From Larkinella rosea (GTDB taxonomy: Bacteria > Bacteroidota > Bacteroidia > Cytophagales > Spirosomataceae), in NCBI RefSeq assembly GCF_003858635.1, contig NZ_RQJO01000010.1, positions 620,001 through 684,000 of the forward strand: 64,000 nt of DNA, read 5' to 3'. The position numbers and the translations under genes are program-made. Positions 57,363-64,000 of the stretch are shown piece after piece (the stretch's first letter is position 1; every line of letters starts with the position of its first letter). Below the pieces are notes generated by a model. That model ran no database searches. It saw nothing but the letters and a program-made list of their open reading frames with translations, and had not been told where the DNA came from.

Positions 57363-58571
57363 ATGCAAGCCACTCTTTCTCCCCCGATTACCCGAACCAA
57401 CATACCCACTTACATCTACGCTGTCGTGTTCTCGTCGCTCTGCATTGTGTGGGGATTGCTCTGGGACATCATGTGGCACATTAGTATCGGCCGCGACGGT
57501 CTGTTTGCCCCCCCGCATTTGCTCATGTACGTTGGTGCGGTCGTAGCGGGTTTGTTTTCGGGCATCAAGATTTTACAATTGACATTCGCCAAAGGAAATC
57601 CCGAACGGACCGGTTCCGTCCGGTTCTGGGGCATCTTCTACGGTTCGCTGGGCGCGATGTACTGCGTCTGGGGTGCGCTGACCATGCTGACTTCGGCCCC
57701 TTTCGACGACTGGTGGCACAATACCTATGGTCTTGATGTTCAAATCCTTACACCACCGCATACGGTTTTACTGGTGGGAATGATGACGGTACAGTTCGGC
57801 GCCATGATCGGCGTGCTGGCGTTGCAGAACCGGGCGTCCGGCACGCAGCCCAACAGCCCCGGCTCCGACACCCAATGGAACCACCGGCAGGCCCAGCGGC
57901 TCAAAATCATGTTCACGATTGCCGCCGGTTTACTCCTGAGTATTCTCTATACGATGCTGGCCGAAAATTTGGGTCCCTGGACCTCCCACCATTCTTCGTC
58001 CTACATCACGATGGGCATTGCGTTCCCGTTCTACCTGCTGGCAGTCGGACGAGCATCCACCCTGCGGTATCCGATTACGATTACCACCCTCGCGTACATG
58101 CTGGCGATGCTGATTCCGAGCTGGATTCTGCCACTCTTTCCCGCAACGCCCCGGCTTGGACCGGTTCTGAACCCGATTACGCATTATCAGGCTTTTGTCT
58201 TCCCCCTTTTACTGGTCATTCCGGGTTTTGTGCTGGACAAGTTACTGCACCGGTTTGGAAACGGCAGGCTCAACGACTGGTTGCTGTCGGCTCTCACCGG
58301 AACGGTTTTTATAGTGATCATCAGCGTCGTCCAATGGTATTTCGGTGGCTTTCTGCAAACCTCGCCCTACGCCCGGAACTGGTTTTTTCTGGCCGAGTCC
58401 ATGTCGTACAGCGATGACCCCACCTCGCCCTATCACACCACTTTCCACCCCCATTGGCTCGAATCGACCCCGGATTTCTTACTGGGCATCGGCATTGCGA
58501 TTCTCTGGGCAATCGCATCCGCGCGAATTGGTCTGCTGTGGGGAAACTGGATGAAAAAAGTACAGCGATAA
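57363..58571 (+). CDS. Polytopic membrane protein with PmoC/AmoC-like copper motifs
   Basis: 402 residues, about ten transmembrane helices. After helix 1 it has DIMWHISIGRDGLFAPPH (Asp35, His39, His52), and before helix 4 it has DDWWHNTYGLDVQILTPPH (Asp115, His119, His133). The first is D-x3-H-x12-H, the CuC spacing of PmoC (Asp156, His160, His173 in Methylococcus). The second is D-x3-H-x13-H, the CuD spacing (Asn227, His231, His245). As I recall it, AmoC/PmoC reads DGTWHQTIVRDTDFTPSH and NEWGHTFWFMEELFVAPLH there, so W, R-D, F and P also agree. The six later helices have no PmoC match, and further His residues occur near 206 and in YHTTFHPHW. I infer a distant C-subunit-like copper protein. 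A plain transporter-like membrane protein is the alternative. Confidence 0.65.
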   Translation: MQATLSPPITRTNIPTYIYAVVFSSLCIVWGLLWDIMWHISIGRDGLFAPPHLLMYVGAVVAGLFSGIKILQLTFAKGNPERTGSVRFWGIFYGSLGAMYCVWGALTMLTSAPFDDWWHNTYGLDVQILTPPHTVLLVGMMTVQFGAMIGVLALQNRASGTQPNSPGSDTQWNHRQAQRLKIMFTIAAGLLLSILYTMLAENLGPWTSHHSSSYITMGIAFPFYLLAVGRASTLRYPITITTLAYMLAMLIPSWILPLFPATPRLGPVLNPITHYQAFVFPLLLVIPGFVLDKLLHRFGNGRLNDWLLSALTGTVFIVIISVVQWYFGGFLQTSPYARNWFFLAESMSYSDDPTSPYHTTFHPHWLESTPDFLLGIGIAILWAIASARIGLLWGNWMKKVQR

Positions 58572-58606: not shown

Positions 58607-60289
58607 GTGCAATTACCTGTGAAGCACTTTCAACAAAGGCTATTTTTTTATTCACTCATTCTCTACCTCACGCATTCACTCCCTGGCTTTGCGCACATCG
58701 GTAGTCCGGGAGTGATGGTGCAGAAAGAGGCCGGAAAATACCAGGTGATGGTGAGCGTCATTCCGCCGGATGTTGTTCCCGGAACGGCCAAAGTGACGAT
58801 TTTTGTCGAAGCCGGTCGCGCCAAAACCGTGCTGGCCCGCCCCATTTATTTCAGCTCCGGCGACGAGGGGGCTCCCGTTCACGACGAAATGAAACCCGTG
58901 GCCGCCAACCGCTTCGAAGGGGTCGTCTGGATGATGGATTCCGGTTCGTCCAGTATTGAACTGAAACTGGACGGCCCCGATGGCAAAGCCAGCATCGTTG
59001 TTCCGGTTTTGTCGATTCCGACAACGATGACGCCCATGCCTGCCGGCACGGGTCTTGGTCTGGCCGCACTTGGCGTTTTGCTCGTTGTTCTGTTCATCAC
59101 CACCGTTGGCGCCAGTCTGGCCGATGGAACGGTAAAACCGGGTCAGTCAGTCCCCGTTTCGTTCCGGCGGAAGCGGCTGGTTGGGATGGGCATTGCGGCT
59201 ATTTTAATCACCGTCGGGCTAACGGGCTGGCGGGCGTGGTGGACCGCCTGGGCCAATCATTACCGCAACCATGAACTGTATGTTGCCCTGCCCATCCATT
59301 CCGAAGTTCACGAAAACGCAGTTCATCAACCGGTTCTGACCATCCGCCTGGATACGTCCGGTTTTGCACAGGGCGGAACGAAAAACCGTCGGCTGAGCTT
59401 TCTGGTACCCGATCACGGAAAACTGATGCACGTTTTTCTGGTTCGGACGCCGGGTCTGGATGCGTTCGCCCACCTGCACCCCGACCGGGACGGCACCACC
59501 GATTTTCGTTCAAACGTGCCGAATCTGCCCGCAGGTAACTACCTGGTCTACGCCGACATTGTGTTCCGGAGCGGTTTTTCGGAAACGCTGACGGATACGG
59601 TTGCTATCCCGGGCCGGACGCAAAAAACCGGTGTGGATTCAAAAAACCGGTCAGAAACGGATCCGGACGATAGCTGGCTGGTGACAGAACCGATGGGCGT
59701 TAGATCGAATGCCGTGGGTCTCCCCCACCTCGACGACGACATGGTGCTGTGTGGCATTCCGGGTGCCAGCTCGAAACTGGCCGACGGTGCCACCATGCTC
59801 TGGACCGACAAACCCGCTCAGGTGCTGGAAACCGGCACGCCCTACCTGCTCAAATTCGCCGTTGCCGATTCGCTGGGAAAACCCGCTCCGCTGGAGCCTT
59901 ACCTGGGCATGGGTGGGCACGCGGCCATTGTGCGATCGGACGGGACGGTTTATATCCACCTGCATCCGGTCGGAACGTATTCGATGGCGGCTGAAACGTT
60001 CCTGGTTAACCGCATTGCCGACACCACGCGCAGTTTTCACTATCCCAACGCAAAGCTGTTCCGCGACAGTGTCGATCGCTATGTTTCCCAACTGAAAACC
60101 CTGCCCGAAGCCGAGAAAAATGCCATTCTGATGGCTTCCATGCCGCCGATGTCGCATCAAATGAAAGTCAATAACATGGTGGAATTTCCGTATGCTTTTC
60201 CGCGGGCGGGCCACTATCGCATCTGGGTGCAGGTAAAACGCAATGGAAAGGTGCTAACGGGCGTTTTTGATACGCAGGTAAAGGAGTAA
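58607..60289 (+). CDS. His-rich two-helix membrane protein, PmoB-like layout
   Basis: 560 residues from GTG 58607, 35 nt after the PmoC-like gene. The signal peptide ends at GFA, leaving His30 as the likely mature N-terminus (HIGSPG). A soluble Ig/cupredoxin-like domain (30-140, with VHDE at 91-94) is followed by helices at about 149-171 and 192-213, then a large soluble region. That region has two His-rich repeats: DHGKLMHVFLV with FAHLHP (270-292) and GMGGHAAIVRS with IHLHP (435-454), and then PPMSHQM near 515. PmoB has the same order: N-terminal His, soluble domain, two helices, soluble domain. CopC- or FixH-like copper proteins are alternatives. The exact ligands are inferred. Confidence 0.6.
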   Translation: MQLPVKHFQQRLFFYSLILYLTHSLPGFAHIGSPGVMVQKEAGKYQVMVSVIPPDVVPGTAKVTIFVEAGRAKTVLARPIYFSSGDEGAPVHDEMKPVAANRFEGVVWMMDSGSSSIELKLDGPDGKASIVVPVLSIPTTMTPMPAGTGLGLAALGVLLVVLFITTVGASLADGTVKPGQSVPVSFRRKRLVGMGIAAILITVGLTGWRAWWTAWANHYRNHELYVALPIHSEVHENAVHQPVLTIRLDTSGFAQGGTKNRRLSFLVPDHGKLMHVFLVRTPGLDAFAHLHPDRDGTTDFRSNVPNLPAGNYLVYADIVFRSGFSETLTDTVAIPGRTQKTGVDSKNRSETDPDDSWLVTEPMGVRSNAVGLPHLDDDMVLCGIPGASSKLADGATMLWTDKPAQVLETGTPYLLKFAVADSLGKPAPLEPYLGMGGHAAIVRSDGTVYIHLHPVGTYSMAAETFLVNRIADTTRSFHYPNAKLFRDSVDRYVSQLKTLPEAEKNAILMASMPPMSHQMKVNNMVEFPYAFPRAGHYRIWVQVKRNGKVLTGVFDTQVKE

Positions 60290-60421: not shown

Positions 60422-60829
60422 ATGAGAATTGTGTTTGCATTGAGTCTTTGCCTTTTGACTTCATCTCTTTTTGCACAAACTAAAAAACCGGCTCCAAAAC
60501 CCGTTGCTGGACCGGGGCAGCAAGTGTATGAACAATATTGCCTGGCCTGTCACCAGGCCGACGGCGGGGGCGTTCCGAACCTGAATCCGCCCCTGAAACA
60601 ATCGGACTGGGTGACGGGCGACAAAACCCGGCTGATCAATGTGATTCTGAAAGGGTTACAGGAGCCCATTGAAATCAACGGCGACACGTTCGATAACGTC
60701 ATGCCAGCCCACGATTTCCTTTCCGACAAGGAGATTTCCGATGTGCTGACCTTTATTCGCAGTAGTTTTGGCAACAAAGCCGAGGCCGTTTCAGCGGAGG
60801 ATGTAAAGAAAGTCAGGAGTGCGAAATAA
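60422..60829 (+). CDS. Cytochrome c, class I
   Basis: 135 residues with a signal peptide (MRIVFALSLCLLTSSLFAQ). CLACH (C-x2-CH) binds heme c near residue 43, and NVMPAHDFLSD supplies the axial Met (about 98). The rest (KQSDWVTGDKTRLINVILKGLQEPI) fits the monoheme class I type that serves periplasmic dehydrogenases. It could carry electrons to or from the putative copper system just upstream; that link is by position only. Confidence 0.88.
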   Translation: MRIVFALSLCLLTSSLFAQTKKPAPKPVAGPGQQVYEQYCLACHQADGGGVPNLNPPLKQSDWVTGDKTRLINVILKGLQEPIEINGDTFDNVMPAHDFLSDKEISDVLTFIRSSFGNKAEAVSAEDVKKVRSAK

Positions 60830-60924
60830 AACCGTCTGAACTCGGATTCCACAGATTAAAGGATTAACTAGGATGATTGATTAATTTTCCTTCGACCCAT
60901 TAGGCAACCCTAATTCCGTAACCT

Positions 60925-61761
60925 ATGAAAAAGTCTCTGTTTTCAGTCCTGTTTGTTGTCGGCCTGGTAACTCTGGCCCTGGCACAGCCGAAATCGCCGG
61001 TTGGCCTGCAGCTGTATAGTTTTCGGGCGCAGTTTCCGAAAGATGTCGCCGGAACAATGGCCAAAGTCCGGGAAATGGGCTTTCGGGAAGTTGAACTGGC
61101 CGGAACCTACGGCCTTTCATACGCGGATTTCCGGAAACTGCTCGACAAAAATGGTCTGAAACCCATCAGCACCGGAGCCTCGTACGCCGATCTGGAAAAC
61201 AACGTTCCCAAGGTGATTGAAGAAGCCAAAGCGCTGGGCGTCAAATACGTAATGTGTGCCTGGATACCGCACAATGGCGACATCTTTACGCTGGAAGACG
61301 CCAAAAAGGCGTCGGATGTACTCAACACGGCCGGTAAACTCCTGAAAGACCACGGCCTTCAATTTTGCTACCACATCCACGGTTATGAGTTCCAGCCCTA
61401 CAAGGATGGTACGTTTTTCGACTACCTGGCCGAGAACCTCGAACCGCAGTACGTAAACTTTGAAATGGACGTGTTCTGGGTGAAACACCCCGGTCAGGAC
61501 CCGATTGCGCTCCTGAAAAAATACCCGCACCGGTTTCCGCTCATGCACCTCAAAGATCGCAAACCCGGTACGCCCGGTAACAACACCGGTCACGTTGACG
61601 TGGAATCGAATGTGGCGATTGGAAAAGGGGATCTGGGGATTGCGGAAATTATGAAACAAGCCAAAAAGTCGGGTGTCAAGCACTTTTTCATTGAAGACGA
61701 ATCGTCGCGCTCGATGGAACAGATGCCGGAAAGTGTGGCCTTTTTACAGCGTTTAAAATAA
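60925..61761 (+). CDS. Sugar phosphate isomerase/epimerase-like TIM barrel, secreted
   Basis: 278 residues with a signal peptide (MKKSLFSVLFVVGLVTLALAQ). PVGLQLYSFRAQF opens the xylose-isomerase-like TIM barrel (PF01261). The metal-ligand residues are expected in YHIHGYEF, NFEMDVFWVKHPG, LMHLKDRK and FFIEDESS. Proteins of this kind in Bacteroidota act as keto-sugar or inositol epimerases or dehydratases. The secretion signal suggests a periplasmic substrate. It follows the cytochrome by 95 nt and shares the terminator at 61773. Confidence 0.85.
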   Translation: MKKSLFSVLFVVGLVTLALAQPKSPVGLQLYSFRAQFPKDVAGTMAKVREMGFREVELAGTYGLSYADFRKLLDKNGLKPISTGASYADLENNVPKVIEEAKALGVKYVMCAWIPHNGDIFTLEDAKKASDVLNTAGKLLKDHGLQFCYHIHGYEFQPYKDGTFFDYLAENLEPQYVNFEMDVFWVKHPGQDPIALLKKYPHRFPLMHLKDRKPGTPGNNTGHVDVESNVAIGKGDLGIAEIMKQAKKSGVKHFFIEDESSRSMEQMPESVAFLQRLK

Positions 61762-63338: not shown

Positions 63339-64000
63339 TCAATTCACCACCCGCTTCACCCGTAAAAACCGGTTCAGTTCGTACGCATCAAAATTGGGTG
63401 CGGTCGGATCAACGCTGGTGATGCGGATGTGGCCGGATGAATGAATAAACTCGTTGTTACCAATCCACATTCCCACGTGCACGACGCGTTCCGGTTTATC
63501 GGCGGTGGCGGGTTCGCCAAAGAAAAGCAGGTCGCCCGGTTTGAGCGAGGCAAAGTTCTTGCCCGGTGTCGCGATTTCTTCGCCGACGTTGACCTGTTGG
63601 GAGGCATCGCGCGGCAACATCTGCCCGTTGAGCAGGTAGACGGTTTTGGTAAAACCGCTGCAATCCATGCCTTTGACCGAGGTGCCGCCCCACAAATACG
63701 GAATACCAATGAACTGTTTTGCCGTGCTCACCAGTGCATCTTCCGTTGGTTTGGCCGCTGCCTGCCAGCGATCGAACCGCTGCGCTTCCCGTTTGGCGAC
63801 AAAACCGGTCCGGCCGTCGGGATACCGCACCTGAAAATACTGCCGTTGTTCATTGAGCAAAACCAGCGTGTTTCCGGCAACGATGTCGGATACGGTCTGG
63901 GAACGTTTGTCGGCCTGGCTGTAGACAAAACCAAAGGGGCGCGTAAAAATGATTTTTTCGGCCGACTGCCACTGTTCAAAGTCGGTTTTGGTCATGAGTT
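63339..64000 (-). CDS. NlpC/P60 (C40) cell-wall peptidase, partial
   Basis: At least 220 residues; the frame stays open through the window edge, so the N-terminus is missing. An SH3-like domain (NTLVLLNEQRQYFQVRYPDG, GFVAKREAQRF) precedes the C40 domain. GMDCSGFTKTVYLL holds the catalytic Cys, HVGMWIGNNEFIHSSG the His, and a third polar residue follows. Such enzymes cut peptide stems in peptidoglycan. An inner ATG at 63995 exists but lies within the conserved region. Confidence 0.88.
   Translation of the reverse strand, partial: LMTKTDFEQWQSAEKIIFTRPFGFVYSQADKRSQTVSDIVAGNTLVLLNEQRQYFQVRYPDGRTGFVAKREAQRFDRWQAAAKPTEDALVSTAKQFIGIPYLWGGTSVKGMDCSGFTKTVYLLNGQMLPRDASQQVNVGEEIATPGKNFASLKPGDLLFFGEPATADKPERVVHVGMWIGNNEFIHSSGHIRITSVDPTAPNFDAYELNRFLRVKRVVN

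Follow-up and report, generated by a model that had tools for sequence, protein, structure and literature searches.

A two-protein membrane unit of Larkinella rosea with a core probably related to the C subunit of methane and ammonia monooxygenases

The window, a stretch of 64,000 nucleotides from the 8.17 Mb genome of the soil-type bacterium Larkinella rosea, carries two adjacent genes whose products are called C and B here (Table 1). The reading frame of C is open throughout. Among the best 80 of 316 related stretches found in genome contigs, the closest named relatives by the C protein are Larkinella species, six at 82-87% identity and a seventh at 72%. The C protein of the window reaches the cut-off of no Pfam or NCBIfam model, and sequence and profile searches found no relative of it in the PDB. 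No description of a C-B-like family was found in the full text of open PMC papers. The proposal of the initial annotation that C represents a new family thus fits. Tandem duplications of C were seen at L036 7932-10437, G012:C1:314102-316769 and G451:C42:10545-13017.

Table 1. Features of C and B in the window, and genes next to the relatives of C at five actinobacterial loci (TM, transmembrane)
Feature	Position	Strand	Description
Protein C, 402 aa	57363..58571	+	10 predicted TM helices; PmoC-like two-motif core is the first four helices
Four-helix core of C, residues 18-153	57414..57821	+	By hydropathy: TM1-motif 1-TM2-positive loop-TM3-motif 2-TM4
Motif 1 of C, residues 35-52 (D35, H39, H52)	57465..57518	+	CuC-like; ligands invariant in alignments
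Motif 2 of C, residues 115-133 (D115, H119, H133)	57705..57761	+	CuD-like by spacing and order; ligands invariant in alignments
Protein B, 560 aa	58607..60289	+	Signal peptide, outer domain, two TM helices, two further outer domains with His clusters (predicted)
His30 of B, predicted mature N-terminus (H-[VI]-G-S)	58694..58696	+	After the signal peptide
TM hairpin of B	59057..59215	+	Hydropathy peaks at residues 158 and 200
B residues 269-292, DHGKxMHxF...FAHxHP	59411..59482	+	D269, H270, M274, H275, H289, H291 invariant in 40/40
B residues 437-454, GH...VYIHLHP	59915..59968	+	H438, H451, H453 invariant in 40/40
L111, neighbour of C relative			CopC (PF04234)
L112, neighbours of C relative			Four-helix copper protein, heavy-metal ATPases, multicopper oxidase
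L200, neighbours of C relative			Cupredoxin and heavy-metal ATPase
L201, neighbours of C relative			Multicopper oxidase and cupredoxin
L203, neighbour of C relative			CopD (PF05425)

Two motifs, D35-x3-H39-x12-H52 and D115-x3-H119-x13-H133, lie 80 residues apart in C. Hydropathy averaged over 48 relatives predicts ten TM segments, of which one precedes motif 1; motif 1 would join TM1 to TM2 and motif 2 TM3 to TM4, and the positive-inside rule, applied to the positively charged loops, places both motifs on the outer side. Among the same 48 relatives the mean identity of the loops is 0.77 on the outer side versus 0.57 on the cytoplasmic side. The only His residues kept in at least 90% of the 48 proteins are H39, H52, H119, H133 and H209. 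At the 90% level the predicted cytoplasmic face and helices 5-10 hold no conserved His or Cys, and the only Met conserved in the cytoplasmic loops or helices 5-10 is M397, near the C-terminus. With no conserved His or Cys on the cytoplasmic face, nothing points to a route across the membrane. E201, a Glu where TM5 ends on the outer side, is nearly invariant and is also present in most of the aligned actinobacterial relatives; together with H209 it may be an addition to a metal or proton site. The motifs, their distance, the length of the protein and the surplus of helices with one before the first motif had all been described in the initial annotation and were confirmed on the reading frame and by hydropathy.

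In the 80 related loci (L030-L109), 1201 ORFs of at least 90 aa were called, 81 belonging to the C family and 1120 to others. With the second pattern written as [DN]-x3-H-x13-H, the first pattern occurs in 84 ORFs and the second in 87; both, at the required distance of 50-110 residues, occur in 81, and these are the 81 ORFs of the C family. A chance motif was rejected on the absence of the pair from all 1120 non-family ORFs. The six ligands are invariant in alignments of 31, 48 and 15 C-family sequences, the last of which includes seven actinobacterial relatives at 18-24% identity. In this alignment of 15, only 13 columns are invariant (W34, D35, H39, R44, D45, H52, P113, D115, H119, G123, D125, P131 and H133), and six of them are the motif ligands. 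The W and the R-D around the CuC-like ligands are also invariant in the alignments of 31 and 48 sequences, whereas F48 and P50 are replaced (by L and A) in some members of the alignment of 31. Of the further positions said earlier to be shared with AmoC/PmoC, W and R-D hold in all of these aligned sequences, F and P in part of them.

Relatives of C were found in Actinomycetota, at 18-24% identity, in Mycolicibacterium, Leifsonia, Streptomyces and Nonomuraea, on plasmids and one chromosome-sized record; another occurs in Rubrobacter. The restriction of the family to Bacteroidota in the initial annotation was thus too narrow. The x13 spacing of motif 2 is present in all eight actinobacterial relatives and the x12 spacing of motif 1 in six (x14 in P0002, x11 in L203). 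Five of the eight have 70-71 residues between the motifs, compared to 71 in PmoC; L203, L110 and P0002 have 62, 74 and 78, respectively. Unambiguous copper genes adjoin the relative at five of the eight loci fetched (Table 1); at L199 and L202 only a BlaI/MecI/CopY-type regulator lies nearby, and at L110 no copper gene was found near it. Behind the core, five actinobacterial proteins carry an outer domain starting with HDPGQG after an A-x-A-like stretch. The profile similarity of these outer domains to the domains of B, which would make an argument from fusion, is not significant. On plasmid pMYCCH.01 of Mycolicibacterium chubuense NBB4 (NC_018022; L202, L196), a genuine CuMMO operon is accompanied by a gene for a C-like protein with a fused outer domain. 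The relative on a Rubrobacter marinus plasmid (L110 8001-9022) is split over two reading frames, and its annotated CDS misses the motif region; it is either a broken gene or a sequencing error.

In PmoC, the ligands are D156, H160 and H173 for CuC and N227, H231 and H245 for CuD, as given in parts of one paper (PMC12576850). The first CuD ligand is an invariant Asn in ten aligned CuMMO C sequences, taken from fetched loci, and Asp115 in C. The claimed match in spacing thus stands for both motifs; the residue at this position differs. C and PmoC/AmoC (PF04896, TIGR03078) share the order TM-[D-x3-H-x12-H]-TM-positive loop-TM-[D/N-x3-H-x13-H]-TM, the W and R-D and often the F and P around the CuC ligands, and, in the five actinobacterial relatives, the distance between the motifs. 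They differ in that the core comes first in C and last in PmoC, with six extra helices after it in C, and in the Asp of motif 2, the 80-residue distance and scores below the curated cut-offs.

Profile comparisons in both directions support a relationship. An hhalign comparison of the whole C family with CuMMO C aligned both motifs in register (P 0.0011, probability 20%). The core profile with actinobacterial members matched CuMMO C at E 4e-5 (probability 70%, score 37.8; maximum of 100 column shuffles 20.6, reversed profile 11.5), and a profile of actinobacterial sequences only at E 5e-4 (probability 31%, score 31.4, with 100 shuffles at or below 20.5). An HMM of the core, built with no CuMMO sequence inside and searched against ten CuMMO C proteins plus the 1201 ORFs, found all ten at E 1e-6 to 0.086; the best non-family ORF came at 0.17. 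Conversely, with an E limit of 10, the CuMMO C HMM recovered 79 of the 81 family ORFs, from E 0.001; outside its own members the first 64 places were all C family, and the first unrelated ORF stood at E 0.32. When the CuMMO C profile was compared over whole length with 55 families of the same loci, the C family came first with 30.8, by a modest margin over a six-TM family with 26.4. The first hairpin of C matches the CuC hairpin at E 1e-7 to 2.3e-7. For the second hairpin taken alone, the match to the CuD hairpin falls short of significance (score 10.9, with the best of 60 shuffles at 16.4), so that the equivalence with CuD rests on spacing, order and predicted topology.

The curated models give weaker signals. 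PF04896, the search suggested initially, gave no match for the C protein of the window, and none for 48 family members among the 25 of 38 families listed. Pfam and NCBIfam AmoC models matched two of seven actinobacterial relatives weakly, at the CuC motif and below cut-off (E 0.014-0.094; PF04896 at E 0.044 and 0.094). PF04896 matches the Leifsonia plasmid at the C relative alone, also below cut-off (E 0.005); the genuine C subunit on another plasmid, a positive control, was found at E 3.6e-59, and the same search, with an E limit of 10, gave matches below cut-off in two of 14 control genomes as well. No C-family protein whose score was seen reached the PF04896 cut-off. A whole-length match to an unrelated transporter family, which by the initial annotation would refute its reading, was not found: the C protein of the window matches DUF6338 (E 0.0013) and DUF4271 (E 0.2), both outside the motifs and below cut-off, and this candidate was rejected. 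DUF6338 is matched by 13 of the 48 C members, with a best E of 6.9e-5 among the matches listed.

The motif might also be a convergent or very general metal hairpin, binding Zn or Fe equally well, with no real kinship to PmoC. Such a reading would fit the restriction of the similarity to the hairpins, the PF04896 scores, the insignificant CuD half and the 30.8 versus 26.4 of the whole-length comparison, but it leaves unexplained that the match extends beyond the ligands to W and R-D, and in many members to F and P, that order, spacing and predicted topology of both motifs agree with PmoC down to the 70-71 residues between motifs in five actinobacterial relatives, and that the HMM searches, run either way, set CuMMO C apart from unrelated ORFs. 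Convergence is thus considered quite improbable, and C is probably a true distant relative of the CuMMO C subunits. Of the two options in the initial annotation, distant or convergent, the first is favoured by the two-way profile comparisons, the weak AmoC matches and the PmoC-like distance; the second is less supported.

The two hairpins of C are an internal repeat. Repeat 1 and repeat 2 align by hhalign at E 1.7e-11 (probability 97.3, score 54.7, shuffle maximum 17.4), and the pattern D-x3-H-x3-G-x-D-...-P-P-H occurs twice in the C family. Compared directly, the CuC and CuD hairpins of PmoC gave no detectable repeat (score 12.3 versus a shuffle maximum of 20.5); the CuMMO CuD hairpin does match repeat 1 of C, at E 6.6e-4 and 27% probability. 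Because the repeat is not directly detectable in PmoC, a duplication that gave rise to CuC and CuD would have to be inferred through the C family as a bridge. On this basis C may be imagined to keep an ancestral-like CuMMO copper core, a tandem-duplicated His2Asp hairpin whose two paralogous copies gave rise to CuC and CuD, the second one exchanging Asp for Asn. C-B would then be a living relative of methane/ammonia monooxygenase that has no A subunit and in which both sites remain in use, perhaps in oxygen or redox chemistry. This scenario is speculative and, as it stands, unlikely.

Protein B follows C closely. H[VI]GS is found within the first 60 residues of all 77 B proteins, right behind the predicted signal peptide, and the residue before it is A in 69, G in 6 and S in 2. 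The invariant residues of the last domains are D269, H270, M274, H275, H289, H291, C382, H438, H451, H453 and M460. In layout B resembles PmoB/AmoB (PF04744), with a mature N-terminal His, an outer domain, two TM helices and an outer domain. The likeness ends there: B is longer, has no invariant HxH in its first domain and carries its His clusters in the last two domains. There is no similarity to AmoB profiles (hhalign probability 0.3%), and the AmoB HMM, which found four of four controls, gave a best E of 0.67 among the 1201 neighbourhood ORFs; B as a sequence homologue of AmoB was thus rejected. Weak matches to YtkA-like and FixH domains (PF13115, PF05751) were seen: YtkA in two of 40 B proteins and in a cyanobacterial relative of the C-terminal domains of B, and both domains in one actinobacterial fusion protein. 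All are below cut-off where the score was shown. Relatives of the last two domains of B are represented by 16 records; of the three loci fetched, two adjoin copper/heavy-metal ATPases and one lies 2 kb from a multicopper oxidase.

The two genes are coupled. B lies behind C in 77 of the 80 loci, and in the other three the contig ends before B. No more than 150 bases separate the C stop from the B start in 76 of the 77; the median is 13. Among 150 genomes of the family, including that of L. rosea, C is present in 91 and B in 94: 90 have both, one has C only, four have B only and 55 have neither (Fisher p 6e-35, uncorrected for kinship among the genomes). The genome with C only (G543) is 81% complete and holds a C fragment. 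Of those with B only, one (G539) has B at a contig end and another (G546) a short B fragment with two stops. The remaining two, G450 (gene at L220 2384-3550) and G491 (match in L221), have an altered B and no C. The altered B has lost the N-terminal domain and the TM hairpin and has S, Q, R, I, R and K at the positions of D269, H270, H289, M435, H453 and M460, respectively. It retains 47 and 48 of 57 invariant columns in the two genomes, including M274, H275, H291, H438, H451 and C382, and thus four of the seven invariant His of the last domains (H275, H291, H438, H451). The two are nearly the same protein and probably reflect one event. The altered B without C links part of the likely metal residues of B, and its membrane anchor, to the presence of C. 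Across the phylum C was found in five of 395 genomes, that of L. rosea included, and the core profile found the same five; within Bacteroidota, therefore, C centres on one family.

Other neighbours are less constant. While C is present at all 80 loci and B at 77, the families that rank next are found at 41, 33, 33 and fewer. The commonest after B are NlpC/P60 cell-wall proteins, which lie directly upstream of C on the same strand at 34 of 80 loci, in Dyadobacter, Telluribacter, Arundinibacter and Persicitalea (e.g., L065 7216-7887); PF00877 was confirmed in all five tested of these 34. NlpC/P60-type proteins are annotated near four of the eight actinobacterial relatives of C (L110, L111, L199, L202), and the window has an NlpC/P60 gene at 63339-63995 on the minus strand. 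The genes after B in the window (60422-61761), for a cytochrome c and a sugar-isomerase-like protein, both have matches in only seven of the 80 loci, each of them from Larkinella. In the Bacteroidota loci, none of the genes next to C-B was recognised as a copper gene.

C and B might form a copper-dependent membrane oxidoreductase, in which copper at a site of C would activate oxygen, as proposed for pMMO. B would then stand in for PmoB, and the six helices that follow the core of C for PmoA. The core kinship with CuMMO C and the retention of both outer-face sites are consistent with this, as are the conservation of outer loops and aromatic residues in those six helices, the PmoB layout of B and a Bacteroidota unit with no recognised copper-resistance genes around it. 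However, there is no sign of an A subunit. The AmoA HMM found four of four controls and reached a best E of 0.039 among the 1201 neighbourhood ORFs; the C-terminal half of C has no profile similarity to AmoA, and it was rejected as an AmoA remnant. Neither PF02461 (A subunit) nor PF04744 (B subunit) was found in the L. rosea genome, by searches run without a positive control. With no A or B subunit homologue found and no curated cut-off reached, C is not considered a CuMMO. In addition, the actinobacterial relatives sit in copper-handling gene clusters, and no constant electron donor adjoins the unit, the cytochrome c at 60422 being confined to the seven Larkinella loci. An oxidoreductase is the main rival to the reading preferred below, possible though rather unlikely.

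Import or export of copper through the inner membrane, in the manner of CopC/CopD or YcnI/YcnJ, was also considered. CopC is an outer partner with an N-terminal His. C-B shares with CopC/CopD and YcnJ-type copper proteins an outer domain starting with His and a membrane partner, and CopC or CopD adjoins two actinobacterial relatives of C. The membrane core is a different one, however, and no PF04234 or PF05425 match is listed for C or B of the window, for 40 B proteins at E up to 1, or for 48 C proteins among the 25 of 38 families listed. A route across the membrane would also have to do without any His or Cys conserved in 90% of the 48 C proteins in the cytoplasmic loops or helices 5-10, and with M397 as the only such Met. 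Transport of this kind is very improbable.

The reading preferred here, with a probability of roughly 0.48, is that C and B form a two-protein metal complex, most likely for copper, on the outer face of the inner membrane, where it would serve periplasmic copper handling rather than substrate hydroxylation. C would provide two His2Asp sites, one in each helix hairpin, related to CuC and probably also to CuD of the CuMMO C subunit. B would be anchored by its helix pair. With several exposed His clusters and the exposed His predicted at its N-terminus, it would gather copper and deliver it to the two sites of C or swap it with them. The complex might thereby bind and transfer copper and load cuproproteins in the periplasm. 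The invariant motifs, the repeat within C, the likeness of the core in profile comparisons and the coupling of the two genes are seen in the sequences themselves. The metal, the topology, the physical contact of B with C, the direction of transfer and the function are all predictions from sequence, and copper as the metal is suggested by the neighbours and the partner.

Copper handling is supported by the invariant ligands, the kinship of the core in HMM and profile comparisons, the copper genes at five of eight actinobacterial loci and the copper/heavy-metal genes near relatives of the B domains. It is further supported by the co-occurrence of C and B, the altered B in genomes lacking C and the absence of conserved cytoplasmic His or Cys. 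Several observations speak against it. Copper handling does not account for the NlpC/P60 neighbour at 34 of 80 loci, and no copper gene lies beside C-B in Bacteroidota. The CuD hairpin is not significant alone; B lacks similarity to AmoB, and its domains lack similarity to the actinobacterial outer domains. Four of seven His and C382 are kept in B of genomes without C. An enzyme with a substrate pocket would likewise fit the conserved outer loops and the aromatic residues seen in the last six helices of C.

The roles of CuC and CuD are still discussed. Homologues of CuMMO subunits are not known to have been described outside these enzymes, and none came up in the open PMC papers. According to parts of one paper (PMC12576850), CuC was proposed as the active site, and no structure shows CuC and CuD both filled. 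The present findings hint that a PmoC-like copper core is perhaps used more widely than in the methane- and ammonia-oxidising enzymes alone. If this is true, a family that has both sites and no A subunit, and occurs in culturable aerobic bacteria, would be a simple system for testing each site, and it would bear on the evolution of methane and ammonia oxidation.
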